Shown: piece by piece, positions 26,316 through 40,586 of the stretch
How the letters are laid out: each line of letters starts with the position of its first letter
Numbering within the stretch: position 1 is the first letter of the stretch
From: Pseudomonas sp. Leaf58
GTDB taxonomy: Bacteria; Pseudomonadota; Gammaproteobacteria; Pseudomonadales; Pseudomonadaceae
NCBI RefSeq assembly: GCF_003627215.1
Contig: NZ_CP032677.1
Coordinates: 5,027,501 to 5,091,500 of the forward strand
Reading direction: 5' to 3'
Length of the DNA: 64,000 nucleotides
Notes under the pieces: model-generated
The model's database searches: none
What the model was told of the DNA's origin: nothing
Seen by the model: the letters and a program-made list of their open reading frames with translations, nothing else
Made by a program: the position numbers and the translations under genes

Positions 26316-26383
26316 AACAATATATTGGATATAATCATTAGCCAGCTATATGCTTTTTTTCATTGCGCCAGAGGTACCCGCCC

Positions 26384-27628
26384 GTGAAAACTGCTGTAGC
26401 CCCCCTTCTCGCCAAGCCAGAACCTGCCCCCCTGAACGATATGTGGATTGAAAAAGGCACCCCCGCCTTCATGAAGACCGTGCTGGCACTGTTCAGCGGC
26501 GGTTTCGCCACCTTCGCCTTGCTGTACTGCGTGCAGCCGATGATGCCGCTGCTGTCCCGGGAATTCGCCATCAACGCGGCGCAGAGCAGCCTGGTGCTGT
26601 CGGTGGCCACAGCCCTGTTGGCGGTCGGCCTGCTGATAACCGGCCCTATCTCTGACCGCATCGGGCGCAAACCGGTGATGGTGTTTGCCCTGGTCTGTGC
26701 GGCGCTTTCCACCTTGGCCAGCGCGGTGATGCCGAGTTGGGAGCTGGTACTGGCCACCCGCGCTCTGGTCGGCCTGTCACTAAGTGGCTTGGCGGCGGTA
26801 GCCATGACCTACCTGAGCGAAGAGATCCACCCGCAGCACATCGGCCTAGCTATGGGCCTGTACATCGGCGGCAATGCCATTGGCGGCATGAGCGGGCGCC
26901 TGATTGCCGGCGTATTGATCGACTTCGTCAGCTGGCACACGGCGATGCTGGCCATCGGCGGCCTGGCCTTGGTGGCTGCGCTGGTGTTCTGGAAGGTGCT
27001 GCCCGAATCGCGCAATTTTCGCCCGCAGGCGATGAACCCGCGCAGCCTGCTGGACGGCTTTGTCATGCATTTCAAGGATGCCGGGCTGCCCTGGCTGTTC
27101 CTCGAGGCCTTCCTGCTGATGGGCGCGTTCGTCACGCTGTTCAACTACATCGGTTACCGCCTGCTAGCCGAGCCCTACCACATGAACCAGGCACTGGTCG
27201 GCTTGCTGTCGGTGGTGTACCTGTCGGGCATCTACAGCTCGGCGCAGGTCGGGGCCCTGGCCGACAAGCTGGGCCGGCGCAAGGTGTTCTGGGCCAGTAT
27301 CGTGGTGATGGCGGGCGGCTTGTTGATGACCCTGGCCAACCCGCTGGCAATGGTGATCGTGGGTATGCTGGTGTTCACCTTTGGCTTCTTTGGTGCGCAC
27401 TCGGTGGCCAGCAGCTGGATCGGCCGCCGGGCATTGAAGGCCAAGGGCCAGGCGTCGTCGCTGTACCTATTTTGCTACTACGCCGGGTCGAGCGTGGCCG
27501 GTACAGCGGGTGGGGTGTTCTGGCACCAGTGGGGCTGGAATGGCATTGGGCTGTTCATTGGCAGCCTGTTGGCGATGGCGTTGTTGGTGGCGTTGCACCT
27601 GAGCAAATTGCCGCCGAAAACTGCCTGA
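26384..27628 (+). CDS. MFS transporter, YnfM-like
   Basis: The protein has 414 aa and 12 predicted membrane helices, with the MFS loop 2-3 motif GPISDRIGRKPVMV and a second copy ADKLGRRKVFW in the other half. FALLYCVQPMMPLLSREF in helix 1 is typical of the YnfM/arabinose-efflux branch. The substrate is unknown. The GTG at 26384 (VKTAVAPLL) is preferred because AGAGG precedes it by 9 nt; a TTG at 26363 has no such site. Control by the divergent LysR protein is likely. It ends 15 bp from the convergent end of the secretion operon. Confidence 0.87.
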   Translation: MKTAVAPLLAKPEPAPLNDMWIEKGTPAFMKTVLALFSGGFATFALLYCVQPMMPLLSREFAINAAQSSLVLSVATALLAVGLLITGPISDRIGRKPVMVFALVCAALSTLASAVMPSWELVLATRALVGLSLSGLAAVAMTYLSEEIHPQHIGLAMGLYIGGNAIGGMSGRLIAGVLIDFVSWHTAMLAIGGLALVAALVFWKVLPESRNFRPQAMNPRSLLDGFVMHFKDAGLPWLFLEAFLLMGAFVTLFNYIGYRLLAEPYHMNQALVGLLSVVYLSGIYSSAQVGALADKLGRRKVFWASIVVMAGGLLMTLANPLAMVIVGMLVFTFGFFGAHSVASSWIGRRALKAKGQASSLYLFCYYAGSSVAGTAGGVFWHQWGWNGIGLFIGSLLAMALLVALHLSKLPPKTA

Positions 27629-27643: not shown

Positions 27644-28105
27644 TTATGTTTCGGCCAGCACCAAGGCGAAGCGTGCCTGAAGCAGCTCACCCTCGACCTG
27701 CAACTGAATGCTGAGCATCTTGCCCCCTTCCTGCTCAAGCGCATGCAGCCAGGCCAGCACGGCCGCCACCGGGCCTTCCAGGCTAACATCCACCTGGCCG
27801 GCCTTGGCTTCCAGGCCGGCGACGCGGATACCGGCGGCCCGAGCGCGCTCGTTCAACCTGGCAGGCGTCAACAACTCGGTGGCGCTTTGCGACCGGGGCG
27901 GCCCTTGCACCATTCGCTGCAGTTGGGCACCTAGTTCGCGTTCACGCGTTAGCAGTTCTTCGGCCTGCTGCATACGAGCCTGCCCCGGCAGCCAGAACAA
28001 CTGGCAGATCATCATCACGGCCCCCCCCCAAAGCGCTACTTTCACCAACGCCTGCCGGCCCGGTGTTAGCTGCTGCCATTGCCACAGATTGCTCCAACGG
28101 TTCAT
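27644..28105 (-). CDS. gspM: Type II secretion protein GspM
   Basis: The protein has 153 aa: a short cytoplasmic N-tail, one membrane helix (about residues 20-40), then a periplasmic coiled coil and a ferredoxin-like fold (about 70-150) as in GspM. It would partner GspL in the inner-membrane platform. Sequence similarity is weak, as usual for this family; last position in the gsp operon and the topology support the call. Its ATG overlaps the gspL stop (ATGA). It is the last gene of the leftward operon; no terminator hairpin is visible in the 15 bp before the convergent MFS gene. Confidence 0.85.
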   Translation of the reverse strand: MNRWSNLWQWQQLTPGRQALVKVALWGGAVMMICQLFWLPGQARMQQAEELLTRERELGAQLQRMVQGPPRSQSATELLTPARLNERARAAGIRVAGLEAKAGQVDVSLEGPVAAVLAWLHALEQEGGKMLSIQLQVEGELLQARFALVLAET

Positions 28106-29217
28106 TCAACCTCCTGCCAGGTAAGAGTCGCCCGTACACCTTGGTCGGCCTGCCGGCCATGTTCCATCCGCACCCCGGGAACACGTGCGCCCAACCGCTC
28201 CAGGTCGTCAAAACCCTGAGCGACAACCTCGACGCGCCAGCCTTGCGCAGGCGTCGACTCGGCTCGCTCGATGGTCACGTTGCCAACGCCGACCAGGTGC
28301 TCGGCAAACAGCGCCAGCTGCTCTACAGCGGTGGATGGCCTGGGGGCACGTTCGAGCAACCTGATCTGCGTCGCCAAGTCTGCGCCGGAAGGCTGCACCT
28401 CTGGCGCCCAGCGCTGTACTGTCTGCACATTCTCGGCATGCTGGCGTGATGCCTGTTGCATCAGCCATTCAGCCCGCAGGTAATCGGCCAGGCATACCAT
28501 CAGCAATGCCAGCGCCACACCACCGGCCACCCCTTGCCATGCCGGGCCTTTGCGGCGCCGACGCAGGGCACCCTGGCGCAGGTCGACAGCGCCGACATTG
28601 GCCTGCACCAGGGTTTCCACAGCGCTGGCGACTGCCTGGTCGCTACAGATCGCGTGCATGGCTGTCGGCTCGGCAAGCCAGGGCATCGAAGCACAATGCG
28701 GCTTCAGTACTCGAGCGGCCTGGTCGCTGATCGCCAAGCACGCGCCCTCGGTCCCTCCCAGCAACCACCGCCCCTCGAACCACAGTGCACAGGCCCGCCC
28801 GGCACACAGCAGGTCAGCATCGATGTGCACGGCGACGGGGTCAATGCCTTGGGCCAACAAGCTCGACATGACCCGGTGCAAGCGGGTCAGCTCTACCGCC
28901 AACACCTTTCGCTGGCCCTTGTCATCCGCTGGCCCAAACGCCAAGTGCAATGCTTCCAGCGGTGCGGCCAACTGCTCTTCCGCCGCATAGGCCAACGTTT
29001 CCCGGCTGGGTCGCCTGCCGGGTACAGGGCCGATCACGCAGTGCCCAGCCATCTCCATGGGCAATACCAGCACCACGGCCGCAACGGCCAACTCAGGCGG
29101 CAGGTTACCCAGCCGGGACCGGTATCCATCGCCCAGGGTTGTACGAACGAGCACAGGCCACTGCTCATCGGTTTCGGCCATGCCCTGCGGCAGTAGAAAC
29201 AGGTAAACATCACTCAT
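28102..29217 (-). CDS. gspL: Type II secretion protein GspL
   Basis: The protein has 371 aa: an N-terminal cytoplasmic actin-like domain (about residues 1-225) that docks GspE, one membrane helix (about 235-255, with GVALALLMVCLADYLRAEWL), and a periplasmic ferredoxin-like domain (about 290-370). The start MSDVYLFLLPQG at 29217 overlaps the end of gspK by 8 bp; an upstream ATG would extend the overlap without family support. GspL links the ATPase to the pseudopilus assembly platform with GspM, GspC and GspF. Confidence 0.9.
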   Translation of the reverse strand: MSDVYLFLLPQGMAETDEQWPVLVRTTLGDGYRSRLGNLPPELAVAAVVLVLPMEMAGHCVIGPVPGRRPSRETLAYAAEEQLAAPLEALHLAFGPADDKGQRKVLAVELTRLHRVMSSLLAQGIDPVAVHIDADLLCAGRACALWFEGRWLLGGTEGACLAISDQAARVLKPHCASMPWLAEPTAMHAICSDQAVASAVETLVQANVGAVDLRQGALRRRRKGPAWQGVAGGVALALLMVCLADYLRAEWLMQQASRQHAENVQTVQRWAPEVQPSGADLATQIRLLERAPRPSTAVEQLALFAEHLVGVGNVTIERAESTPAQGWRVEVVAQGFDDLERLGARVPGVRMEHGRQADQGVRATLTWQEVE

Positions 29218-30067
29218 CTGGCAGTTGCTCCGGCAGTGCAGAATAAACACGACGCAACACGCGGACCTTATGCGTGTTCAGATCGATCTCCAGGTCGCTG
29301 TACAGGTAAATGCGCTTGCCTCCCTGCTCCGCGCGCACCTGCAGGCGGAACCAGCGGCTCGTTACCGCCAACCCATGGCTGTCGATGCCAAGGCCAATCA
29401 GCTGCGGCTGGGCCAGAAACCGCTGTACGCTGGTATGGCCTTCATCGCCTCGCTCGGCCGCCAGGGCCTGGGCAGTAGCGCGCTCCACGCCCTCAAGGCT
29501 TTCGAGCACGTGTGCCGAGGCGGTATTGATATTGAGCCCCGCCTCTGGCGGCAACGCCACGACCCATGGCCGTAACCGTGCCATTACCTCGGCATCAACT
29601 CCTGGCAGGGTGCGCAACTGGCTTGGATCGAGCATGGGCTGCCCTGCCAAGGGCTCCAGCACCGGCGCTTCGATCTGCAGGGCGCGACACAAGCGCTGCC
29701 AACGCTTCAGCAACACCGGGTCGAGTGCCTTTCGCTTAGTCAGCGCAGCGAGGTTGAAGCGGCCGGAGAGATCTTCCAGGCGCACGCGCACCTGCCCCTG
29801 CCCGAGCGCCAGCGAGCGGGTTTGCGCCCACGGTTGGCCACCGTGGGTCACCTGCAGCAGGGCGGCAGCCTGCTGTTTCAACTGCGCCAAGGCTTGGCGT
29901 TCGCCAGCATGGGCAAGCTGCAGCAGGTGCGAAGCTTCGATCTGCTGGCGGACGCCCCCCAGCATGCCGTGGTGGCTGCGCAACATGCTGGCGACCAATA
30001 GGGTCAGCAGCGCCATCACCAGCAGCACGGTGATCAGAGCCACCCCCCGTTGTCCTGTACGTTTCAC
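29210..30067 (-). CDS. gspK: Type II secretion minor pseudopilin GspK
   Basis: This 285-aa protein has a prepilin signal (KRTGQRG|VALITVLLVMALL) lacking Glu at mature position 5, which is normal for GspK, and a large alpha-helical insertion with the motif GLNINTASAHVL. It caps the pseudopilus tip with GspI and GspJ. The start is a GTG at 30067 overlapping the gspJ stop (GTGA). It is cleaved and methylated by a prepilin peptidase that is not encoded in this operon. Confidence 0.93.
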   Translation of the reverse strand: MKRTGQRGVALITVLLVMALLTLLVASMLRSHHGMLGGVRQQIEASHLLQLAHAGERQALAQLKQQAAALLQVTHGGQPWAQTRSLALGQGQVRVRLEDLSGRFNLAALTKRKALDPVLLKRWQRLCRALQIEAPVLEPLAGQPMLDPSQLRTLPGVDAEVMARLRPWVVALPPEAGLNINTASAHVLESLEGVERATAQALAAERGDEGHTSVQRFLAQPQLIGLGIDSHGLAVTSRWFRLQVRAEQGGKRIYLYSDLEIDLNTHKVRVLRRVYSALPEQLPDE

Positions 30068-30642
30068 AAGCTCGCCCCGGCCAATGGCAATACCCGGCGT
30101 ATGCCTTGAAAGCGCTTGGTCGATAGCGTGATTTCAAGCGCCTGCGGCGGCTGTGCAGCCGCCCAGCTGGTCACCCATCCGCTCTCCACGGCATACAAGC
30201 GCCAACGCAGCTCAACAATGCCGTCAAGCAGCCGTTGACGGCGCCCTTGGCCGTGTTCAAACGTGCGCCGCTGGCGCCACAGCACACCGTCCTCCAGCCA
30301 GTACTCGACAATGCTCAGATCACTGCGGGGCAATGACTGTCGATCGGCTTCAGCACCAAGCAACCAGCCCACCCGTTGGGGCGTTAGTAACACACCATGG
30401 TTCGCGCCCTTTTTTCCGCTTGCAGGCCAGTACCCTTGCAACGCGTCCCGTTGCATCACACTCATTGCCCGCCCAAGGGCGCGCAGTTCGTCTGCCTGGG
30501 CCTGGCGTGCGGCATCGGTGCGTACCAGCGCAGCCAGCAATTGGCTGGTACCCGCTGCCAACAGCGCAAACACGGCAATCGCCAGCAGTAGCTCCAGCAG
30601 GGTAAAACCCCGCTGGGCTGGGGCGAAGTCACTGCGCGGCAT
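30064..30642 (-). CDS. gspJ: Type II secretion minor pseudopilin GspJ
   Basis: The protein has 192 aa. The prepilin motif QRG|FTLLELLLAIAVFALLAAG follows a 12-residue leader, and the rest is the beta-rich GspJ fold. The start MPRSDFAPAQRG at 30642 gives a normal short leader; the longer frame would add 21 residues translated out of gspI. It overlaps the 3' end of gspI by 14 bp. Confidence 0.93.
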   Translation of the reverse strand: MPRSDFAPAQRGFTLLELLLAIAVFALLAAGTSQLLAALVRTDAARQAQADELRALGRAMSVMQRDALQGYWPASGKKGANHGVLLTPQRVGWLLGAEADRQSLPRSDLSIVEYWLEDGVLWRQRRTFEHGQGRRQRLLDGIVELRWRLYAVESGWVTSWAAAQPPQALEITLSTKRFQGIRRVLPLAGASL

Positions 30643-31012
30643 CAGCAACCTCCAGCCAGCCCACCGCGTGGTGAAGCGGCTGCCGGTCAGCCGCCAGGCC
30701 GACATCCACGCTTACTTCCATAAGGCCAAGCTCAACCTGGCGACGCCGCGACTCGATGATGAACCAGGCACGCTGATCGAATTGCACTTCCAGGCCGCGC
30801 TGCTGCGTAGCGCTGATGGCGTGCAGGCGAAGCTCATTCAGGTGGTTGTCGGCCAGCCAACTGGCAAACAGTCGATCACGCATGCCCTGCGACTGTGCCA
30901 ACACCTGCTGGCTGGCAGTGCTCACGGCTGCGGCCAGTACGGCGAAAACAGACAGCGCCACCAGCACTTCCAGCAGCGTGAAGCCACGCTCAGCGTTCGA
31001 GCTGGGGGTCAT
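30629..31012 (-). CDS. gspI: Type II secretion minor pseudopilin GspI
   Basis: The protein has 127 aa with leader MTPSSNAERG and a prepilin N-terminus FTLLEVLVALSVFAVLAAAV. The C-terminal half matches the GspI fold (LADNHLNELRL). The ATG at 31012 was chosen because it gives a 10-residue leader; an ATG three codons earlier (31021) is possible. The gene overlaps gspH by 23 bp and gspJ by 14 bp, so translation of this operon is tightly coupled. Confidence 0.92.
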   Translation of the reverse strand: MTPSSNAERGFTLLEVLVALSVFAVLAAAVSTASQQVLAQSQGMRDRLFASWLADNHLNELRLHAISATQQRGLEVQFDQRAWFIIESRRRQVELGLMEVSVDVGLAADRQPLHHAVGWLEVADAAQ

Positions 31013-31454
31013 TGAGGCCATCGCCCGATACCTGGGCAAGGCCGACGCCTGCCTCTTGGAATGACAACGAGAACGGGATGTACTCGTCGTTACGGTAAAA
31101 CACCAGCTGCGCAGCGCTTTGCGGCCTGGTGAGCAGCACAGGGAACCCATCGATCTCAAGCCGCAGGTCCAAACCGGTATCGCGGTGCCGCCCGGCCGCC
31201 GTCCACGTGCGCCCACCGGCTTTCATCAGCTGATAACCGCGGGCGTCGATGCGGACGCCCAACTCCCGCCCCTCAAGCACAGCTTGCTGCCTGGCGTACT
31301 GCACCAATTGCAGAAACAGGCCCGCCTCTTGGTCAGCCAGGCGTTGAGGGTTACGCCCCAGTTGTAATCCGGCCATGCCTATGACAATGCCTGCCAGTAC
31401 CAGCACCAGCAGCATTTCAAGCAAGGTGAACCCTTGTGAGCGGCGCAGCGTCAT
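30990..31454 (-). CDS. gspH: Type II secretion pseudopilin GspH
   Basis: The protein has 154 aa, with leader MTLRRSQG then FTLLEMLLVLVLAGIVIGMAG, followed by the beta-sheet GspH domain (VLLTRPQSAAQLVFYRNDE). GspH joins the shaft of major pseudopilins to the GspIJK tip. The ATG overlaps the gspG stop by 4 bp (ATGA). Confidence 0.92.
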   Translation of the reverse strand: MTLRRSQGFTLLEMLLVLVLAGIVIGMAGLQLGRNPQRLADQEAGLFLQLVQYARQQAVLEGRELGVRIDARGYQLMKAGGRTWTAAGRHRDTGLDLRLEIDGFPVLLTRPQSAAQLVFYRNDEYIPFSLSFQEAGVGLAQVSGDGLNDPQLER

Positions 31455-31897
31455 TCGCCCCAGTTGCCGATATCGGCATCGGCATCTTCACCTGCTGGCT
31501 GGCCGTCGGCCCCTAGCGAGAACAGGTCATACCCCTGACCGGAGCGCGGGCCGGGGCTGACGTACTGATAAGGCGCCCCCCACGGGTCGAGTGCCGGGCG
31601 CTTGAGGTAGCCCTGCGCGTTCCACTGGCGAGGCAGCGGCGCAATGGTTGGGCGCCTGACCAGCGCTTCCAGGCCCTGGCTGGTGGTCGGATAGCGCCCA
31701 TTGTCCAGGCGGTAGATTTCCAGCGCTGTGGCAATGGACTGAATATCGGTACGCGCTGCGGTGAGCTTGGCGTGGTCCGGGCGGCTCATCACATTCGGCA
31801 GCACCAGCGCGCCTAGCACCCCGAGGATGACCACCACCACCATGATCTCGATAAGTGTGAAGCCGCGTTGCGCGCGGCGTGCAAAGCCAGAGGACAT
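31451..31897 (-). CDS. gspG: Type II secretion major pseudopilin GspG
   Basis: The protein has 148 aa. Leader MSSGFARRAQRG is followed by FTLIEIMVVVVILGVLGALV, with the conserved Glu5. The C-terminal part has the calcium-site and family motifs DNGRYPTTSQGLEALV, LDPWGAPYQYVSPG and YDLFSLGADG. It is the main subunit of the periplasmic pseudopilus that pushes substrate through the secretin. The gene starts 1 bp after the gspF stop. Confidence 0.96.
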   Translation of the reverse strand: MSSGFARRAQRGFTLIEIMVVVVILGVLGALVLPNVMSRPDHAKLTAARTDIQSIATALEIYRLDNGRYPTTSQGLEALVRRPTIAPLPRQWNAQGYLKRPALDPWGAPYQYVSPGPRSGQGYDLFSLGADGQPAGEDADADIGNWGE

Positions 31898-31898
31898 A

Positions 31899-33104
31899 TC
31901 AGTTGACCAGTTGGTTGAGGTTGAGAATGGGCAGCAAGATGGCCAGCACGATGAACAGCACAATACCGCCCATCACCAACAGCATCAGCGGTTCGCACAG
32001 GCTTACCAGCAGGGAGATTCGACCGGCCAAGTGCTTGGCCTGTAGCTCGGCGGCGCGCTCGAGCATGCTGTCCAGCTCCCCAGCACGCTCGCCGCTGGCA
32101 ATCATGTGCAACATCAGTGCGGACAGGGTCTCGCTGCGAGCCAGGCTGTTGGCCAGCGTTGCCCCTTCGGCCACTTCACGCGCAGCGGCTTGCAAGCGCT
32201 CGCGCAGTACCTGGTTGCCTACCACGCCTGCGCCAATGTTCATGGCATCGACCAGCACGACACCGCTGCGGCCAAGAATCGCCAGAGTGCTGACGAAGCG
32301 CGCGGCTTCACTGGCGCGAACAAAGCCGGCATAACCCGGCACCCGCAAGACCAGGGCATGCCATTGTCTGCGCCTGGCTGGCTGGCGCAGCGCGAACGCC
32401 ACGGCTGTGCCGCACGTGAGCATCACCGCAAAGGCCGCAAGCCCGAAGCGGCCAAAGCCATCGCTGAGTGCAATCAGTACCTGTGTCGCCATTGGCAACC
32501 GGGCCTGGTCGCGGGCAAATGCCTGCACCACATCTGGCACCACATAGCCGAGCAAAAAGCCCACCACCAGCAGCGAGACAAACATCAGGATCAACGGGTA
32601 GAGCATCGCCAGCTGCACCTTCTGCCGCAAAGCCTGCTGTTCCTCACCATGTGTTGCCAGGCGCTCCAATACTCCCGCCAGGTGCCCCGAACGCTCCGCC
32701 GCTTCGACCGTTGCGCGGTACACCACCGGGAATGCCAACGCGTAATGCGACAGCGCATCGGCGAAGCTATTGCCTTCGGCGACCCGCTCGGCCACGCCCA
32801 GCACTACCTGCCGGGCCTGTCGCTGGTCACTTTGCGCAGCCACCGCCTGCAGCGCCTCGGTCAATGGCATGCCAGCCTGCAACAGCGTTGCCAGTTGCCG
32901 AGTCAGCAGGCAGCGACGTACCAAGGACAGGCGATTGCGTGCAGCCAACGCGACAAAGGGTGACGGCGTTACCACCTCGAGGGTCAGCACCGCCAAACCC
33001 TGCTCACGCAGTTGCTGCCGAGCCTGGCGTGCACTAGCCGCCTCCAGTGTGCCGCGCTGGCGAAGGCCGCCCAGGCGTTGGGCCTGGTACCTGAAAACCG
33101 CCAT
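31899..33104 (-). CDS. gspF: Type II secretion inner-membrane platform protein GspF
   Basis: The protein has 401 aa: two cytoplasmic T2SSF helical-bundle domains (about residues 70-190 and 270-395) and three membrane helices (LYPLILMFVSLLVVGFLLGY, a helix near 220, and the C-terminal one GGIVLFIVLAILLPI). It starts MAVFRYQAQR at 33104, 2 bp after the gspE stop. It converts ATPase motion into pseudopilus assembly. Confidence 0.95.
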   Translation of the reverse strand: MAVFRYQAQRLGGLRQRGTLEAASARQARQQLREQGLAVLTLEVVTPSPFVALAARNRLSLVRRCLLTRQLATLLQAGMPLTEALQAVAAQSDQRQARQVVLGVAERVAEGNSFADALSHYALAFPVVYRATVEAAERSGHLAGVLERLATHGEEQQALRQKVQLAMLYPLILMFVSLLVVGFLLGYVVPDVVQAFARDQARLPMATQVLIALSDGFGRFGLAAFAVMLTCGTAVAFALRQPARRRQWHALVLRVPGYAGFVRASEAARFVSTLAILGRSGVVLVDAMNIGAGVVGNQVLRERLQAAAREVAEGATLANSLARSETLSALMLHMIASGERAGELDSMLERAAELQAKHLAGRISLLVSLCEPLMLLVMGGIVLFIVLAILLPILNLNQLVN

Positions 33105-33106
33105 GA

Positions 33107-34570
33107 TTAGCCCTGGCCCGTCACGCGTAGCAGTTCCTCGACACTGGTCTGCCCAAGGCAAACTCGCAGAACGCCATGCTGAAACAGGTTTGTCGCGCTC
33201 TGGCGCGCCAATTCAAGCATCTGCGCCTGTGATGCGCGGCTATGGATGGCCTGCGCCAACGGCGGGGTGATCACGACCATTTCATGCAAGGCCATACGCC
33301 CGCTGTAGCCCAGCTGGCACAGCTCGCAGCCAACGGCCTTGTATAACTGCGCCGGCAGGTCGCCAGGGTTGCCCAGGGCACTGGCCGTGGCATCATCCAC
33401 CTCATACGCGGCCTTGCAATGCGGGCACAGCACACGCACCAGCCGCTGGGCCATGACGCCGGCCAGGGACGAGGCCAGCAGGCAGGTATCCACCCCCATG
33501 TCGGCCAAGCGGGTGATGGCACCTAGCGCACTGTTGGTGTGCAGGGTGGATAGCACCAAGTGGCCGGTCAGCGATGCCTGCACGGCGATTTCAGCAGTTT
33601 CTCGATCACGGATCTCACCCACCATCACCACGTCCGGGTCCTGGCGCAGGATCGCCCGCAGCCCGCGAGCAAAGGTCATCTCGACCTTGGTGTTGACTTG
33701 GGTTTGGCCGATGCCGGGCAAGTGGTATTCGATCGGGTCTTCAACGGTGAGGATGTTGCGCGACTCCCGGTTTAGCACCGAAAGGGCCGTGTACAGGGTC
33801 GTGGTCTTGCCTGAACCGGTCGGGCCGGTCACCAGGAAAATGCCATGGGGTTTGTCCAGCATGGCCAGAAAGGCCTGCTGCACCGATGGCTGCATGTGCA
33901 TGTGCTGCACATCCAGGCGTACCGCCTGCTTGTCCAGCAAGCGCAGTACCACACGCTCGCCGTGCGCCGCAGGCAATGTGGAAACACGCACATCCACCTC
34001 ATGGCCGGCCAGCCGCAGGCTGATCCGGCCATCCTGCGGCACACGTTTCTCGGCAATGTCCAAGCGCGCCATGACCTTTATTCGCGATACTAGCAACGCC
34101 GCGAGCGCTCTGGGCGGCGTCAGCACCTCACGCATGACCCCATCGATACGCATGCGAACACGCAACTGTTGCTCGAAAGTTTCCAGGTGGATATCGGAAG
34201 CACGCGACCTCACCGCCTCGCTGAGCAAGGCATTGAGCAAACGGATGATCGGCGCATCATCCTGTTGCTCGAGCAGGTCACTGGTTTGCGGCAACCCCTC
34301 GGCCAGGCGGGACAGCTCGATGTGCTCGTCCAGCCCTTGAATAACCGACTGCGCTGCATCCTGGGCGCCGCCATAGCAAGCGGCAAGATGCTCGGCAAAC
34401 TGCTCGCTATCTACCAGGCGCAGCGGCCAGCCATGCCCAACGATACGTAGCGCCTCGGAGAGTGAATCCAGAGAGGCGTTGGCGCGCATCAGCAATACAG
34501 GTGCAGTGGCCTGCTGGTCGAGCAGAATGCCGTAACGCCGGGCAAAACCGAACGGTAGCGAAGGGTTCAT
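33107..34570 (-). CDS. gspE: Type II secretion ATPase GspE
   Basis: This 487-aa hexameric ATPase has Walker A VTGPTGSGKTTTLY, Asp box and Walker B motifs (NILTVEDPIEY and LRQDPDVVMVGEIRDRETAE), a His box STLHTNSALGAITRL, and a tetracysteine zinc motif CPHC...CELC spaced 29 residues apart. The N-terminal domain that contacts GspL is shorter than in some relatives. The ATG overlaps the gspD stop by 4 bp. The intact motifs argue that the system is functional. Confidence 0.96.
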   Translation of the reverse strand: MNPSLPFGFARRYGILLDQQATAPVLLMRANASLDSLSEALRIVGHGWPLRLVDSEQFAEHLAACYGGAQDAAQSVIQGLDEHIELSRLAEGLPQTSDLLEQQDDAPIIRLLNALLSEAVRSRASDIHLETFEQQLRVRMRIDGVMREVLTPPRALAALLVSRIKVMARLDIAEKRVPQDGRISLRLAGHEVDVRVSTLPAAHGERVVLRLLDKQAVRLDVQHMHMQPSVQQAFLAMLDKPHGIFLVTGPTGSGKTTTLYTALSVLNRESRNILTVEDPIEYHLPGIGQTQVNTKVEMTFARGLRAILRQDPDVVMVGEIRDRETAEIAVQASLTGHLVLSTLHTNSALGAITRLADMGVDTCLLASSLAGVMAQRLVRVLCPHCKAAYEVDDATASALGNPGDLPAQLYKAVGCELCQLGYSGRMALHEMVVITPPLAQAIHSRASQAQMLELARQSATNLFQHGVLRVCLGQTSVEELLRVTGQG

Positions 34571-36408
34571 TGGCCTGGGTCCTCGCCCTCAGGCATCCGC
34601 CGCGTTTCGAACATGCTGCGGGGGTCTTGAGGCATGCGCGCCGGGTCGGCTGCCTGCACGTCACCGTAGGCACGCCGCCCGGACTCGATCAGTTCTGCCT
34701 GAGAGCGCAAAATGGTCGGCCGCAGGAACACCATCAGGTTGGTTTTTTCCTGGGTGTCCCTGGTCCAGCGGAACAGGCCACCGATCAGCGGAATACGGCT
34801 GAGCAACGGCACGCCGCGCTGCTCCGTTCGCACACTGTCCTTGATCAGGCCGCCAATCACGATGATTTCGCCGTCCGCTGCCAGGATGGTGCTCTTGAGG
34901 GTCCGCAAGCTGGTAATCAGGTCGCCCTCGACCGTGCTGGGCGCCAATTCGGAGCTTTCCTGCTCGACCTCCAGGCGCAAGCTACGGCCCGCGTTGATGT
35001 GCGGGCGAACCTTTAGGCTGATACCGATATCCTTGCGTTCTACGGTGGTGAACGGGTTATCCGCGCCACTGCCTGAAGTGGTGTAAGAGCCGGTCTTGAA
35101 CGGCACGTTCTGCCCTACCAGGATCTGCGCTTCCTGGTTGTCGAGGGTGAGCAGGCTGGGGGTGGACAGCAGATTGCTACGGCTGTTACTGGCCAAAGCG
35201 GACACCAACACCCCAAAGCGGTCAGACCCCAATGCCAACGCTGCACCGCTGGGCAGCGTCTTTTCCGCGCCAACCAGGTCGGCCCAGGCAGCACCGCTGT
35301 CAGGGAAGGTTACCCCGCCCTTGAGGCTGCCGGTGTCTACCCCCCATTGCAGCCCCAAGGCCTCGTTGATATCGCCACTGACCTCGACGATGGCTGCATG
35401 AATCAACACCTGTGCGCGGGGCTGGTCGAGTTGCTCAATGATCTGCACCACATTCACCAGTGTCTGGGGTTCGCCCAACAGCACCAGCGCGTTCTGGCTA
35501 ACGTCAGCCTTGACCATCGCCCCCGCCGCAAGCGGCTGGCCCAACGTTTCGGTACCAGCCTTGCCATCTAGCCGCTTGCCCACTTCATTGAGCACCTCGG
35601 CCAGTTGCTCGGCATTACCGTGCTGAAGCCGCACCACTCGCCAGTGTTGTGAGCTTGCAGGCGCAGGTACGTCCAGCTCGCGGGCCAGCCGTGCGAGGCG
35701 TTGTCGGGATTGTTCCGGGCCGAGCACCAGCAAGCGATTGCTGCGTGGGTCGGGTAACACACGTACCCCACTGTCCGGGCCACCCGCTGAAGCCTCGACA
35801 ACCGGCAACACATCCATCGCCTGTGCGAAGCGGAGCACCACCAGTTCATAATCGTGCCGCTGACCGCTGTCCAGTTGCGCCACCAGCGCTTGCAAGCGTT
35901 CAAGGTTGGCAGCCGAGTCAGTGACGACCAAGGCATTGGCTGAACTGGACGGGCCAATGTACCCATTGCTGGAAACCAGCGGCCTTAGCAAGCCGGCCAG
36001 GTCAGCGGCAGTGCTGCCGGCCAGGCTGAACACCCGCGTGGTAAATGCGGCAGGAATCGCATCGACTTGCTGGTTGGCCCAGGCTTTCGCTTCACTCGCT
36101 GGCAACACCAGCAGCCGATCACCATCGTTTACCGCGGCAAACCCTTGCGCATTGAGGACGGAATAAAATAACCGGCGCACGCCCTCGCGGTCGTGCGCTT
36201 CGTTGGACAACACCGTAATGCGGCCTTGCACCCGCGGGTCGAGCACGATCGTCTGGTCCAGAATGGCCCCGACCTCGCGCACCACATCGCGCACGTCAGC
36301 ATCGCTCATGGCCAGTTGCCAGGTTGGCGCATCAGCCTGGGCCAGCGGGCCAGTCAAAGTCAGGCAGGCCCCGAATGAGGCTGCCCACAGGTAGCGTTGG
36401 ATTGTCAT
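34567..36408 (-). CDS. gspD: Type II secretion outer-membrane secretin GspD
   Basis: The protein has 613 aa with a signal peptide (cut near GPLAQADAP), an N0 domain (about residues 30-105), N1-N3 repeats and the secretin C-domain (about 370-570, with VPLLSRIPLIGGLFR and NLMVFLRPTI). A short tail rich in charged residues may be the pilotin-binding S-domain, though no pilotin gene is present. The start MTIQRYLWA at 36408 overlaps the gspC stop by 4 bp. It forms the 15-mer outer-membrane channel. Confidence 0.96.
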   Translation of the reverse strand: MTIQRYLWAASFGACLTLTGPLAQADAPTWQLAMSDADVRDVVREVGAILDQTIVLDPRVQGRITVLSNEAHDREGVRRLFYSVLNAQGFAAVNDGDRLLVLPASEAKAWANQQVDAIPAAFTTRVFSLAGSTAADLAGLLRPLVSSNGYIGPSSSANALVVTDSAANLERLQALVAQLDSGQRHDYELVVLRFAQAMDVLPVVEASAGGPDSGVRVLPDPRSNRLLVLGPEQSRQRLARLARELDVPAPASSQHWRVVRLQHGNAEQLAEVLNEVGKRLDGKAGTETLGQPLAAGAMVKADVSQNALVLLGEPQTLVNVVQIIEQLDQPRAQVLIHAAIVEVSGDINEALGLQWGVDTGSLKGGVTFPDSGAAWADLVGAEKTLPSGAALALGSDRFGVLVSALASNSRSNLLSTPSLLTLDNQEAQILVGQNVPFKTGSYTTSGSGADNPFTTVERKDIGISLKVRPHINAGRSLRLEVEQESSELAPSTVEGDLITSLRTLKSTILAADGEIIVIGGLIKDSVRTEQRGVPLLSRIPLIGGLFRWTRDTQEKTNLMVFLRPTILRSQAELIESGRRAYGDVQAADPARMPQDPRSMFETRRMPEGEDPGQ

Positions 36409-36899
36409 TGCACCTCCCGCAATAGGCGGGGTGAATCGGCAGGGGCAGGACCACGCTCGGCGGTACTGCCAGATTGAACGAAGACGTTGGCGCGGTTGCC
36501 CGACAACGCCACGATTTGCTCGCTGCCGCCGTCCCAAAGCGTAATGGCGCGCACGTCGATACCGCGCAACACGCTGCCGCCAGGCAGGCGATCGCCAACC
36601 TGATAGAGGCGCTCACCCTCACGGCTGCCTATCAGAGCGCGGGCTTGGCCACGGCTGGAGACGAAACACGCCTTGAGCACCAACCCAGCCTGGCTTGCAG
36701 CCTCGCCCGCAGGTTCGCTGTAGCCAAAAGCCAGTGCCAGAGCTGCCACAGGCAACGGCTTGTGCACGGGTGAGGCAGGGACGCCAGCGTGCTGCTGAAC
36801 AGGTTCGACCACGCCAGGGCGCGTCGCTTCTCTAACGAACAGAACCACCGCCACCAGCAAGGGAGCTGCCGCCCAGGGCAGTATCGAAAGGCGCTTCAT
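36405..36899 (-). CDS. gspC: Type II secretion protein GspC, short form
   Basis: The protein has 164 aa: one membrane helix (about residues 8-25, PWAAAPLLVAVVLFV) and a periplasmic homology region (about 55-140, with LVLKACFVSSRGQARALIG and YQVGDRLPGGSVLRGID) that binds the secretin N0 domain. The C-terminal PDZ or coiled-coil domain of typical GspC/XcpP (over 230 aa) is missing; the protein ends 25 residues after the HR domain. Because that domain contributes to substrate choice, a narrow or single-substrate system is possible. It lies 4 bp downstream of the cytochrome gene. Confidence 0.88.
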   Translation of the reverse strand: MKRLSILPWAAAPLLVAVVLFVREATRPGVVEPVQQHAGVPASPVHKPLPVAALALAFGYSEPAGEAASQAGLVLKACFVSSRGQARALIGSREGERLYQVGDRLPGGSVLRGIDVRAITLWDGGSEQIVALSGNRANVFVQSGSTAERGPAPADSPRLLREVQ

Positions 36900-36903
36900 T
36901 GGC

Positions 36904-37416
36904 TCAGGGCAACATCCGTCGCAGCACTCGCCGCCCCACAAGTTCATGCATAACGACCGCGCCAACATGCATCACTACCGCTATGGCCAAAACCAAATTC
37001 GCAGCCACATGCAGCGTTAGCCAGGCGCTGAGCCAGGATGGGTCGCTGAGCACAGGTGCAATGGCAAACCAGCCAAACACGTCGATCTCACGGTCCATCA
37101 TCAGCACGCCGGACAACAGCACCAGCGCCGTCACCCAGTACATGCCTTGGTGGACGATATGGGCGGCGCGCCTTGCTAGGGCGTTGTCATTCACCGCAAC
37201 TGGCCTGGCCATGAGCAACCGCACCAGCCAGCGCAGCAGGAAGACCGGAATGAAAAGCGTCGTCAGCCCGACGTTCACGAAACCGACAAACCGGGCTGTG
37301 GAGGGTTCGACATCAAACACCGAGACATAAAAACCACTGACCAGCGTCCAACCGATCACCCAGGCAGAGACCCAGTGCAACAGGATCTGCTGCCAGCAAT
37401 ATGTGTGTTGTTCCAT
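36904..37416 (-). CDS. Cytochrome b561-family membrane protein in the secretion operon
   Basis: The protein has 170 aa and four predicted membrane helices (about residues 12-30, 38-62, 83-103 and 132-160). His residues in helix 1 (LLHW), helix 3 (AHIVHQGMYW) and helix 4 (LHVAANLVLAIAVVMHVG) fit haem-b ligands. Helix 2 has no His where b561 proteins usually have HKS-G. The start MEQHTYCWQQ at 37416 avoids an upstream ATG inside a hairpin. It lies between the LPMO and gspC genes, so a redox role linked to the LPMO is possible but unproven. It is otherwise a generic cytochrome b. Confidence 0.8.
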   Translation of the reverse strand: MEQHTYCWQQILLHWVSAWVIGWTLVSGFYVSVFDVEPSTARFVGFVNVGLTTLFIPVFLLRWLVRLLMARPVAVNDNALARRAAHIVHQGMYWVTALVLLSGVLMMDREIDVFGWFAIAPVLSDPSWLSAWLTLHVAANLVLAIAVVMHVGAVVMHELVGRRVLRRMLP

Positions 37417-37429
37417 TGGAAATACCGTG

Positions 37430-37467
37430 GTGTGGCCTGGCACCCTTCTCAAGTTGCCAGGCCACAC
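37430..37467 (-). promoter_or_regulatory. Perfect 13-bp intercistronic hairpin between the LPMO gene and the cytochrome/gsp genes
   Basis: The arms at 37430-37442 (GTGTGGCCTGGCA) and 37455-37467 are perfectly complementary around a 12-nt loop. No T-tract follows on the minus strand, so it is not a standard terminator. It begins 4 bp after the LPMO stop. It could stabilise the upstream LPMO message or reduce downstream expression, letting secreted enzyme be made in excess over the exporter. Confidence 0.8.
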
Positions 37468-37471
37468 TCCT

Positions 37472-38935
37472 TCAGTGCTTGATCCAGGCGTCTTGCCAGT
37501 TGCTGCCTACACCAGGCTCATAGTGGTTGGCATTTTCCGAATAGCTCTTGCACCAGCCTTCGAACGGGAACGGCTTGCACTCGAAGACTTCGCCAGTCTT
37601 CGGTTGCAGGACACGTGTCCCTTCCTTGTAGCTTGCAATCGATTGAGGGAATTCGAAGTCGTACCCGTCACCAGCGGCTTTCAGGGTTACTTCGCGTTGC
37701 TCTTGCAGCAACACGCGCTGGCGCTTGTCCACACCAACGACTTTCAGCGTATGCGCACCCTCTACGCTGGCGGCGTCCAGCACCAACTTGCCCGTTCCCT
37801 CCACTTGCTGCCGAACGAACCCGACTTGCTTGTTGGCGGCATCGAACAGCCGCGCACTCACCTGCAAGCCCAAATTGCTCATCACGGTGAAGTCGAGAGT
37901 GGTCTTGCCTTCCTTGAGCATGTACTCAGGCTTCAGGTCATGCAGATGCATGTAGCCAGGCTCACCGGCGGCCGCGTCGATATCCAGCTCAAAACGGGTA
38001 ACCCCGCTCTCGGCCTTGGCGTAGAGGGTGTTTGAGCCCTGCACTGGCTCAATGTCGCCGTCATCGTTGAACTTGCCTGCTTTGATGAGGGCCTGGCTCT
38101 CGTTGATACGGCTGGCCAGTTTGTAGGCCCAGTTGGCGGCGGTGCCTTCCTCGGCACGTTCGATCACAATGGTCGTGCTGTACTGCTCACTCTCGACACC
38201 GCCGACGAACGCCCGGGCCTTGACCTTGTCCCCCACCTCCAGGTCCCTGTGCGGATTGATTGAACCTACGGGTGGCCACTCTGGTGCAGGACCGCCTTCT
38301 GCCTGGATATCGACATCAATGATGTTGTGGAATGCGGCAGCGGTATCCGCGACCGTCCATAACCCCAGAATGGCGTGGTGCCCGGTGCGATCGGCGGGTA
38401 AGGTACAACGATGCTTTTCCGGCGCAGGGCCCTGGCCGGCCTCTTCACCGCCAGTTGCAGGTTTGCCATGCCCGTCCACGCTGCAGAATGGGGTCGCTTC
38501 GAAGGCATCGCGGCTCAACGGCGCATTGGGATTCCACCCAGACTTGGTAACGAAGTACTCCCACTTGGTGGTCTTGTGGCCTGTGGTATAGAACCAGTCA
38601 AAATCGATGACACGGTCACGTATCGGGGTCAGGTGCCAGCGATTGGCCGATTGCTCGTCGAGCAGTGCGAAATCGGGACGCACGCCGCCGCTGGCAATCT
38701 TGCCATCCTCAGGCCCGAGGAGGGGGAAGCCTTTAGGCGCTTCACCTACAGAATTCGGCTCATACATCGGCTGGCCGCACTCCGTATTCAGACCCAATCG
38801 GCACGCATAAGCGCGAGAGGGCGGCTCACTGGCATAACCATGGGCATTGGCCACCTGGGCGTGTATGCCTACTCCTGTGATTGCCAACCACGCAGTGCTG
38901 GCAACAATGTTTCGATATTTTTTGCGTGTACGCAT
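37472..38935 (-). CDS. gbpA: Secreted lytic polysaccharide monooxygenase, GbpA-like (AA10)
   Basis: The protein has 487 aa, like Vibrio GbpA (485). The Sec signal peptide ends ANA|H, leaving His32 as the mature N-terminus. His32 and His120 (YTTGHKTTKWEYF) form the copper histidine brace, and Phe202 (AAFHNIIDVDI) is the axial residue. Domains: AA10 (32-210), GbpA-type middle domains (about 220-420), and a C-terminal chitin-binding CBM73/CBM5-like module with W residues (GWCKSY...NWQDAWIKH). It oxidatively cleaves or binds chitin or GlcNAc polymers outside the cell. It heads the gsp operon, so it is the likely type II substrate. Confidence 0.93.
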   Translation of the reverse strand: MRTRKKYRNIVASTAWLAITGVGIHAQVANAHGYASEPPSRAYACRLGLNTECGQPMYEPNSVGEAPKGFPLLGPEDGKIASGGVRPDFALLDEQSANRWHLTPIRDRVIDFDWFYTTGHKTTKWEYFVTKSGWNPNAPLSRDAFEATPFCSVDGHGKPATGGEEAGQGPAPEKHRCTLPADRTGHHAILGLWTVADTAAAFHNIIDVDIQAEGGPAPEWPPVGSINPHRDLEVGDKVKARAFVGGVESEQYSTTIVIERAEEGTAANWAYKLASRINESQALIKAGKFNDDGDIEPVQGSNTLYAKAESGVTRFELDIDAAAGEPGYMHLHDLKPEYMLKEGKTTLDFTVMSNLGLQVSARLFDAANKQVGFVRQQVEGTGKLVLDAASVEGAHTLKVVGVDKRQRVLLQEQREVTLKAAGDGYDFEFPQSIASYKEGTRVLQPKTGEVFECKPFPFEGWCKSYSENANHYEPGVGSNWQDAWIKH

Positions 38936-39057: not shown

Positions 39058-39405
39058 TCAATTGAGGATTTCAACCAAGTCCACATCCACTTCACGGCTC
39101 ATCAGGTGCTTCTCCACCTCCCCCGTCAGCTTGACTTTGGTCTTGTCGTTGAACGGCGTCGGCGGCAGGTCCTCATCATCGATTTCCACGGTGATGGTAC
39201 CGGTGCTGTCCTTGAACTCGTACTTGTCGTCGTTGTTGATCTTCTGGGTCACGAAGCCTTGCAGCACCACCGGGGTGTCATCCGCTGCATCATTGGCCGC
39301 TGCGACGGTGCTGGCCGACTGGGCACCGGGGCCGGTGTAGCCGGCAGCCAAGGCAGCCGTGCTGAACAGTGGGGCGAGAATCAGTGCGAGGTAGCGGGTT
39401 TTCAT
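39058..39405 (-). CDS. Periplasmic BOF (bacterial OB-fold) protein, YgiW/YdeI family
   Basis: The protein has 115 aa with a signal peptide (cut after STAALA) and an OB-fold domain (about residues 45-114) with the family pattern VVLQGFVTQKI, YEFKDSTGTITVEID and KVKLTGEVEK. Relatives such as E. coli YgiW are periplasmic stress-related proteins of unclear mechanism. It is monocistronic with its own terminator, between the secretion locus and hemE. Confidence 0.9.
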   Translation of the reverse strand: MKTRYLALILAPLFSTAALAAGYTGPGAQSASTVAAANDAADDTPVVLQGFVTQKINNDDKYEFKDSTGTITVEIDDEDLPPTPFNDKTKVKLTGEVEKHLMSREVDVDLVEILN

Positions 39406-39521: not shown

Positions 39522-40586
39522 TCACTGATGGTACTGCGCCGACAGTTCGTGCACGGCGTTGATGAACACGCCAGCATGCTCCGGGTCGACTTCCGGGGTA
39601 ATCCCGTGGCCCAGGTTGAACACATGACCCGTGCCATGGCCATAGCTGGCCAGGATGCGCGCCACTTCCTGACGGATCGCTTCGGGCTTGGCGTACAGCA
39701 CGGTCGGGTCCATGTTGCCTTGCAGGGCCACTTTGTCACCGACGCGGCGGCGGGCGTCGCCGATCTCACAGGTCCAGTCCAGGCCCAATGCGTCGGCGCC
39801 GGCTTCGGCAATGCTTTCCAGCCACAGGCCGCCGTTCTTGGTGAACATGATTACCGGCACCTTCCGCCCTTCGTGCTCGCGGATCAGGCCGCTGACGATC
39901 TTGCGCATGTAGGCCAGGGAGAACTCCTGGTAGGCCGCCGCCGACAGGTTACCGCCCCAGGTGTCGAAGATCTGCACAGCTTGGGCGCCCGCGAGGATCT
40001 GGCCGTTAAGGTAGCTGGTGACCGACTGAGCCAGCTTGTCCAGCAGCAGGTGCAAGGCTTGCGGGTTGTCGTAGGCCATGGCCTTGGTTTTGCGGAAGTC
40101 CTTGGACGAGCCGCCTTCGACCATGTAGGTGGCCAGAGTCCATGGGCTGCCGGAGAAACCGATCAGCGGTACTCGGCCATTGAGCTCACGGCGGATGGTG
40201 CTGACCGCGTCCATCACATAGCCAAGGTCTTTCTGCGGGTCGGGGATCGGCAGCGCTTCGATGTCGGCCGGGGTGCTGATGACCTTCTTGAAACGCGGGC
40301 CTTCACCGGTCTCAAAGTACAGGCCCAGGCCCATGGCGTCAGGGATGGTGAGGATGTCCGAGAACAGGATCGCCGCGTCCAGCGGGTAGCGGTCCAGCGG
40401 CTGCAGGGTAACTTCGCAGGCGAACTGCGGGTTCATGCACAGGCTCATGAAATCACCGGCCTTGGCACGGCTAGCGCGGTACTCCGGCAGATAGCGGCCG
40501 GCCTGGCGCATCATCCACACCGGGGTGACGTCTACGGGTTGCTTGAGCAGTGCACGCAGGAAACGGTCGTTCTTCAGGGCAGTCAT
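39522..40586 (-). CDS. hemE: Uroporphyrinogen decarboxylase HemE
   Basis: The protein has 354 aa and decarboxylates the four acetates of uroporphyrinogen III to give coproporphyrinogen III in haem synthesis. Signature [16 protein letters not shown] lies at residues 22-37, and family motif [16 protein letters not shown] follows. The substrate-binding Asp in [15 protein letters not shown] is present. The length is standard. It is monocistronic, with a terminator downstream and a candidate sigma-70 promoter at 40675-40702. Confidence 0.97.

Follow-up and report, generated by a model that had tools for sequence, protein, structure and literature searches.

A candidate dedicated type II exporter for a GbpA-type chitin monooxygenase, with an accessory cytochrome b561, in Pseudomonas sp. 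Leaf58

The 64,000-nt stretch of Pseudomonas sp. Leaf58 DNA analysed here (the window) carries, on its minus strand at positions 27644–38935, an operon of thirteen consecutive genes encoding a lytic polysaccharide monooxygenase (LPMO) of family AA10, a small cytochrome of the b561 type (b561) and the type II secretion system (T2SS) components GspC to GspM. The operon is read, with a probability of roughly 0.55, as a type II secretion machine dedicated to a single chitin LPMO of the GbpA type, related to the Txc and Yts1 systems and housed at the hemE site, with an accessory b561 in the inner membrane. The LPMO is a fixed partner of the exporter and this link is strong; the link of b561 to both is real, and b561 is an optional partner.

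Three protein searches over 298 genomes of the genus (thresholds of E 1e-12 for b561, 1e-60 for the LPMO and 1e-120 for GspD) found matches in 71, 77 and 116 genomes, respectively, with 122 GspD rows. A GbpA-type LPMO gene adjoins all 73 top-scoring GspD rows (at least 538.6 bits, one per genome) at a distance of 0.6–1.3 kb, and the GspD fragment of genome G269 likewise lies beside one, giving 74 LPMO-exporter loci. The remaining 48 GspD rows all lack an LPMO neighbour: 44 come from genomes in which the LPMO search gave no match, and four are unlinked (G133, G242, and two in G122). The division into 74 and 48 is one of score, identities of 49–50% occurring in both sets. Three of the 77 LPMO genomes are without the exporter (their LPMOs are 37–41% identical), and the LPMO-exporter pair is missing from 224 of the 298 genomes. 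The sequence-only reading of this DNA had proposed that the LPMO is the dedicated cargo; because its gene is linked to the exporter in this way, the LPMO is probably the exported substrate.

The LPMO (37472–38935, 487 residues) scores 495.8 bits against the GbpA equivalog NF009690 (cut-off 481) and contains the LPMO_10 (PF03067) and GbpA_2 (PF18416) domains. A signal peptide is predicted at residues 1–31 (cleavage site judged by eye), with His32 next. The copper of LPMOs is held in a brace of two histidines, one of which becomes the N-terminal residue after signal cleavage; His32 and His120, invariant across all 76 aligned rows (L055, L058, and L063 left out, the window gene present twice), would be the expected brace. 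The features of the GbpA subfamily are thus all present, namely the two domains, the N-terminal and the second histidine, and the equivalog score, and the nearest solved structure is that of Vibrio cholerae GbpA (8gul, E 2.6e-93).

The order LPMO, b561, gspC–M was confirmed by profiles and coordinates, with start codons chosen by the analyst. The type II set is complete within this one operon: a short gspC (36405–36899, 164 residues), placed by position with a PF11356 score of 25.2 bits, slightly under the cut-off of 27; the secretin gene gspD (34567–36408; TIGR02517, 477 bits); the ATPase gene gspE (33107–34570; TIGR02533, 645 bits); gspF (31899–33104), slightly under the TIGR02120 cut-off (421.7 against 424 bits) and clear in Pfam (PF00482); the major pseudopilin gene gspG (31451–31897; PF08334); gspH (30990–31454; PF12019); gspI (30629–31012; PF02501); gspJ (30064–30642; PF11612); gspK, with a GTG start (29210–30067; NF037980); gspL (28102–29217; TIGR01709); and gspM (27644–28105), placed by position with a PF04612 score equal to the cut-off (27.8 bits). 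Overlaps had been reported from gspC on, and eight of the ten junctions do overlap, by 4–23 bp; gspE and gspF are 2 bp apart, and gspF and gspG 1 bp. The b561 gene (36904–37416; 170 residues; PF01292, 58.2 bits; superoxide-oxidase fold) is separated from gspC by 4 bp and from the LPMO gene by 55 bp. No prepilin peptidase gene was seen within the operon, to which this search was confined. Besides gspD, the genome has five further secretin-domain matches (C1:5079620, at about 52.1 kb of the window; C1:2466722; C1:3544250; C2:104293; and C2:12809).

The interval between the LPMO gene and b561 contains a perfect 13-bp inverted repeat, predicted to form an RNA hairpin just 3′ of the LPMO stop (37430–37467, minus strand; 12-nt loop). 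The 55 bases past the LPMO stop fold more stably than dinucleotide shuffles (z < −2) in 71 of the 74 loci, with a median z of −4.4 and a z of −5.95 in the window; the hairpin sequences differ among loci, and the fold is present whether b561 follows or not. The same test was positive after b561 in 2/46 loci, after gspD in 1/74, after gspE in 2/74, and after gspG in 1/74, these controls lying mostly in coding sequence owing to gene overlaps. A simple intrinsic terminator was rejected for the window, where the hairpin has no T-run and the terminator listing has no entry at this point; since the T-run is absent, partial termination and protection of the 3′ end are both possible. Because the inverted repeat lies in the gap between the two genes, the LPMO message may be to some extent independent of the genes downstream, and either mode would give an excess of LPMO over the machine.

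The distribution of b561 is less uniform than that of the LPMO. Within the 74 loci, it occupies the LPMO–gspC interval in 46, follows gspM in one (L038), is a truncated relic in one (L055), and is undetected in 26 (tblastn at E 1e-3 on stretches of 16–20 kb). In G180 (L065, L037), b561 is on a separate contig among other genes. The sequence-only reading had asked for a co-occurrence search and had stated beforehand that absence of the LPMO or the cytochrome from most relatives would speak against it; the LPMO is absent from none of the 74 exporter loci and b561 from about a third, so that the proposed association holds for the LPMO throughout and for the intervening cytochrome in part. A Fisher test (48/74 versus 23/224) ignores relatedness, as do the Mantel tests below. 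Where present, b561 is under purifying selection, as its low dN/dS indicates both in nine operon pairs (0.15–0.31) and in five pairs without the exporter (0.11–0.23), with 0.11–0.31 across all 17 pairs; in operon pairs the LPMO gives 0.10–0.19 and gspD 0.06–0.15. The solo pairs may have lost the exporter recently, and the statement holds for them unless those losses were very recent.

Beyond the genus sample, named genomes were scanned with the b561 alignment. Ranked by similarity to the query, the top 80 of 102 loci, a biased sample of contexts, comprise 49 with both LPMO and T2SS within 8 kb, 11 with a T2SS and no detected LPMO, two with an LPMO only, and 18 with neither. Five of the 11 T2SS-only loci (Yersinia proxima, Y. 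ruckeri, Y. artesiana, Erwinia aphidicola, and Pantoea sp. 1.19) show, in longer stretches, the order b561, a small gene, gspC onward, and an LPMO at the far end; the other six are Pseudomonas loci with b561 after gspM and a flank too short for an LPMO to be seen. Serratia sp. AKBS12, one of the 49, has its LPMO upstream. In six Enterobacterales clusters of LPMO, T2SS, and b561, GspD is 34–36% identical to the Pseudomonas queries and the gene order is different. In Endozoicomonas (L021/L200), the LPMO gene adjoins b561 and the T2SS is divergent, and three loci pair the two genes where no neighbouring T2SS was seen: L151 (genome G500), L248 (a second Serratia locus, with a GH18 protein), and L249 (G662), in which one regulator gene separates them. 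This recurrence across genome sites, operon positions, and divergent T2SSs speaks against a single insertion site. In both LPMO-only loci (L162 and L217) the LPMO is broken; in L217 (Pseudomonas fontis, 6400–8510), LPMO similarity lies in two frames by an intact b561 and the exporter is unmatched in a 16.5-kb stretch, which suggests a decaying locus that keeps the cytochrome.

A number of observations weigh against the proposed reading, chiefly against a part for b561 in it. Its absence (26 of the 74 loci, with the further relic) is scattered on the GspD tree, a quick-method tree of the 74 rows without bootstrap, where it requires 19 changes, well-supported branches forcing at least 14 of them, and shows no more clustering than label shuffles do (mean 20.9; 108 of the 500 shuffles gave a value as low). 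Twelve genomes (L022, L026, L063, L064, and L066–L073) have an intact b561 at the site with the LPMO and exporter missing, and none of them has an LPMO match genome-wide at E 1e-60; on the b561 tree this solo state represents eight changes, at least seven of them forced. The 18 of the best 80 of 102 named loci with neither partner point the same way. In the family of Y. proxima (74 genomes including the query genome; b561 in four, GspD in 11), the six GspD loci nearest Yts1 comprise two with b561 and LPMO, both known beforehand, one with the LPMO alone, and three with neither at the locus. At the level of the order (332 genomes, own genome included; one query for each search), b561 was found in six and the LPMO (E 1e-30) in 18, the LPMO-b561 pairs of G031 and G500 falling under that LPMO threshold; among the 19 LPMO rows beyond the own genome, which come from other families of the order, 16 were inspected, some at contig ends, and none has this b561 or gsp genes nearby. 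Finally, an LPMO already outside the cell is out of reach of an inner-membrane protein. An obligate LPMO-b561-T2SS unit was rejected, b561 being frequently lost and also surviving alone.

The same observations lend themselves to another reading, in which b561 is a quinone-linked redox protein of general function that shares the cluster by chance, a passenger functionally unconnected with either the LPMO or the exporter. Its frequent loss from intact operons, its survival outside them, and the like selection on it with and without the exporter would all be expected of such a protein, as would its stand-alone relatives, which include close ones on plasmids: of four plasmid records, the three inspected (two from Duffyella, one from Pantoea) have no LPMO or T2SS neighbours. 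(A scan of viral contigs found no relative.) A passenger explains poorly why b561 recurs with LPMOs in several lineages with differing T2SSs, gene orders, and genome sites, and why it stays in the locus on moving to the end of the operon, which a single preferred insertion site hardly accounts for; we regard this reading as possible if somewhat unlikely. The accessory role is preferred because the linkage is repeated, whereas an obligate step is contradicted by loss and solo survival, and a redox partnership of b561 with the LPMO is plausible.

The four-helix b561 fold, as in the Escherichia coli superoxide oxidase CybB (5oc0), is present, and the conserved histidines are His14, His89, His136, His150, and His157, the first four of these invariant in 153 of 153 aligned rows (species repeats included, 137 distinct over residues 6–160; L055, L076b, L087, L099, L100, L116, and L170 left out for cut or doubtful ends). 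The haem-ligand histidine of the second helix (CybB His45) is Asn48 here, with Asn in 152 of the 153 rows and Lys in one; ten distant b561 rows, compared by eye, all have His. The 5oc0 topology, from which we infer the ligand role of His45 and which haem loses its ligand, suggests that Asn48 leaves the periplasmic haem with a vacant axial position. The superoxide-collecting residues of CybB fare unevenly: R30, R35, and K134 are mostly lost (12 of 153 rows have Lys where CybB has K134), D164 is replaced, 84 rows have K and 20 have R at the R38 position, and R108 is an alignment gap next to Arg109, itself kept in 127. By its residues, therefore, membership in the superoxide-oxidase family was rejected, given the change of His45 to Asn and the loss of most basic residues; b561 appears instead to belong to a new subfamily with the superoxide-oxidase fold and Asn in place of the second-helix haem-ligand histidine.

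These residues bear on two further proposals. In the first, b561 is a safety valve that would clear superoxide arising from the copper-loaded LPMO in the periplasm and return the electrons to quinone, as the E. coli enzyme does; the likeness of fold invites it, the residues just described do not, and we consider it unlikely. In the second, b561 is a feed, passing quinol electrons to the LPMO copper or to oxygen (as superoxide or peroxide) and thereby priming the LPMO before or during export. LPMOs require reductant and peroxide, the latter being their co-substrate, and the supply of both to bacterial secreted LPMOs is an open matter in the field; b561 accompanies LPMOs even where no T2SS is seen beside them, and the putative open axial site would suit such a role. 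Set against this, many operons do without b561, the site of LPMO action is extracellular, the haem that loses its ligand is assigned through the topology of a homologue, and the Asn is common to stand-alone members as well, so that a feed seems quite unlikely. Still less credence is given to its most specific form, in which the subfamily would be a quinol-driven periplasmic oxygen reductase whose five-coordinate periplasmic haem binds oxygen and releases superoxide or peroxide, giving the LPMO electrons and co-substrate as it is exported. The sequence-only reading had conceived of a secretion-coupled redox feed; the recurrence of b561 with LPMOs in other gene orders sustains the redox part of that idea, and the 26 loci and 12 solo genomes described above leave an obligate coupling to secretion unsupported.

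The operon is bracketed on one side by a gene for a BOF (OB-fold) stress protein (39058–39405, minus strand; NF033674), which lies outside the system, and the gene at 39522–40586 (minus strand), which we take to be hemE as in the earlier reading, and on the other by a convergent gene (26363–27628, plus strand), presumably of the major facilitator superfamily (MFS), a name likewise carried over. hemE, 87–99% identical in the loci of this site, and the MFS gene form its borders in relatives, and 66 of the 74 LPMO-exporter loci lie between them. In the 63 loci with both flanks, distances among GspD and LPMO sequences track those of hemE plus MFS (Mantel 0.88 and 0.83, respectively); for the 39 of these with b561, the values are 0.68 for b561 against GspD, 0.70 against the LPMO, and 0.62 against hemE plus MFS. 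Because most loci share the site and their divergence follows the flanks, the data fit an older inheritance with repeated loss, and the process of loss is visible in L063, where an intact b561 stands between remnants of the LPMO gene and gspM. Eight loci are off-site (L032, L062, L098, L105, and L130–L133), five of them forming one well-supported branch of the GspD tree. A recent mobile insertion of the whole cluster between MFS and hemE, as first proposed from the gene order of P. putida KT2440, is not favoured and was rejected as improbable: the absence of the pair from so many genomes of the genus and the uptake of other cassettes by the gspM–MFS stretch would fit it, whereas the common site, the tracking of the flanks, the relics in L063 and L055, and base composition (GC of the gsp genes, 0.61–0.65, equal to that of the region right of them in gene order; GC of the LPMO/b561 part lower, 0.58–0.61, resembling the hemE side, 0.57–0.63) speak against it.

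Two further observations concern the site. The BOF gene, in the LPMO–hemE interval in the window, is in the gspM/b561–MFS interval in L090, L092–L094, L072, and L165, a small rearrangement. In that same interval, L039, L050, L067, and L102, which represent several species, apparently carry a two-gene defence cassette of the Septu type (PtuA/PtuB) beside the operon; PADLOC called PtuA and PtuB in L050 and PtuB in L102, and L039 and L067 were judged by eye.

In the preferred reading, that of a dedicated exporter with an accessory cytochrome, the LPMO would be taken into the periplasm by Sec, fold and be loaded with copper there, and be carried by the GspC–M machine across the outer membrane to chitin, the pseudopilins being processed by a peptidase presumably encoded elsewhere. 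Through the hairpin past the stop, LPMO mRNA would be produced or preserved in excess of that of the machine. The b561 protein would pass electrons, in either direction, between quinone or quinol on the side of its cytoplasmic haem and a one-electron partner on that of its periplasmic haem; this partner might be oxygen, superoxide, or copper chemistry in the vicinity of the LPMO. It would be useful where the LPMO is made, dispensable for export, and would have a separate use of its own.

The system is best compared with Txc. A relative genome with the order LPMO, b561, gspD is presumably that of PA7; its b561 gene is at 1434048–1434554, between LPMO and gspD, and its secretin is 70% identical to that of L062. 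Txc of Pseudomonas aeruginosa PA7 (P. paraeruginosa) comprises, according to a paper of 2025, PSPA7_1407–1417 (11 genes), with CbpE as 1419, and is reported to secrete CbpE (PMC12369383), a GbpA homologue (PMC7902821); b561 of the relative genome is consistent with the slot of PSPA7_1418, the number left between Txc and CbpE and not named in the portions of that report available to us (PMC12369383). The likeness thus consists of a gene for a GbpA-homologous LPMO beside a gsp operon, with b561 in the LPMO–gspD slot. The window system differs in identity (52% for GspD, 37% for the LPMO, and 40% for b561), in its genome site, and in having, among the window open reading frames (ORFs) at 24.5–42.3 kb, no counterpart of the two-component system TtsS/TtsR adjacent to Txc. 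We place it among the LPMO-linked T2SSs of the Txc/Yts1 kind, as an addition to them that would work like Txc and is not filed as Txc because the adjacent two-component system is lacking. In the Txc-like loci L132, L133 (about 14.9–18.3 kb), and L062 (1.6–5.0 kb), a tandem pair of GbpA-type LPMO-like genes lies upstream of the exporter. Large sensor-like ORFs, not profile-checked, occur upstream of the LPMO in off-site loci, and some Pseudomonas and Enterobacterales loci have such ORFs adjoining LPMO or b561 (L131, 16726–19830; L225, 2469–6062; L172, 3658–6018; L168, 4222–7282; L194, 4109–7739); for L168 and L194, Pfam profiles identify hybrid kinases that carry a solute-binding-type domain, and response regulators of the LuxR type.

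Yts1 of Yersinia and the Yts1-like clusters of Erwinia and Serratia, with ChiY as cargo, likewise unite b561, a T2SS, and a GbpA-type LPMO in one cluster. They differ in GspD identity (34–36%) and in order: b561 is first, followed by a small gene where a PclR-type regulator has been reported, gspC onward, and the LPMO last, preceded by a prepilin peptidase (confirmed by Pfam in L236). The exporter of V. cholerae GbpA is presumably a general T2SS, encoded elsewhere. This nearest solved relative of the LPMO is itself secreted by a T2SS, as a review states (PMC3521999). In Burkholderia, LcoA-BcnA resembles the present case in the pairing of a b561 gene with that of an exported protein dealing with oxidative chemistry, and differs in that this protein is a lipocalin rather than an LPMO and that the text available includes no T2SS in the system (PMC9113575). 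Other redox helpers of LPMOs exist, since the Pseudomonas aeruginosa LPMO CbpD is reported to be influenced by pyocyanin and azurin (PMC7902821). A Pseudomonas comparison of 2012 mentions a novel T2SS and, in its available text, neither a chitin-binding protein nor b561 by these terms (PMC3390384); in open-access titles and abstracts on b561 with LPMO or chitin and secretion, a literature largely outside subscription journals, no other entry points to a functional link.

The linkage itself is already in print: the available text of a Yersinia review of 2012 describes a cytochrome, a T2SS, and a ChiY-type protein as linked, including in P. aeruginosa and P. putida, and leaves undecided whether this reflects an insertion site or a function (PMC3521999). 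The genus-wide counts, the hairpin that follows the LPMO stop in nearly all loci, and the haem-ligand change are new, and because of them the question of 2012 is now testable. The data argue against both a single insertion site and an obligate role; there remains an accessory role that can be tested, with a concrete residue, Asn48 in place of a haem-ligand histidine, on which to test it. For the genus, the operon would be an example of an exporter type whose top-scoring secretins, all 73 rows of the sample, adjoin the gene of the probable cargo.

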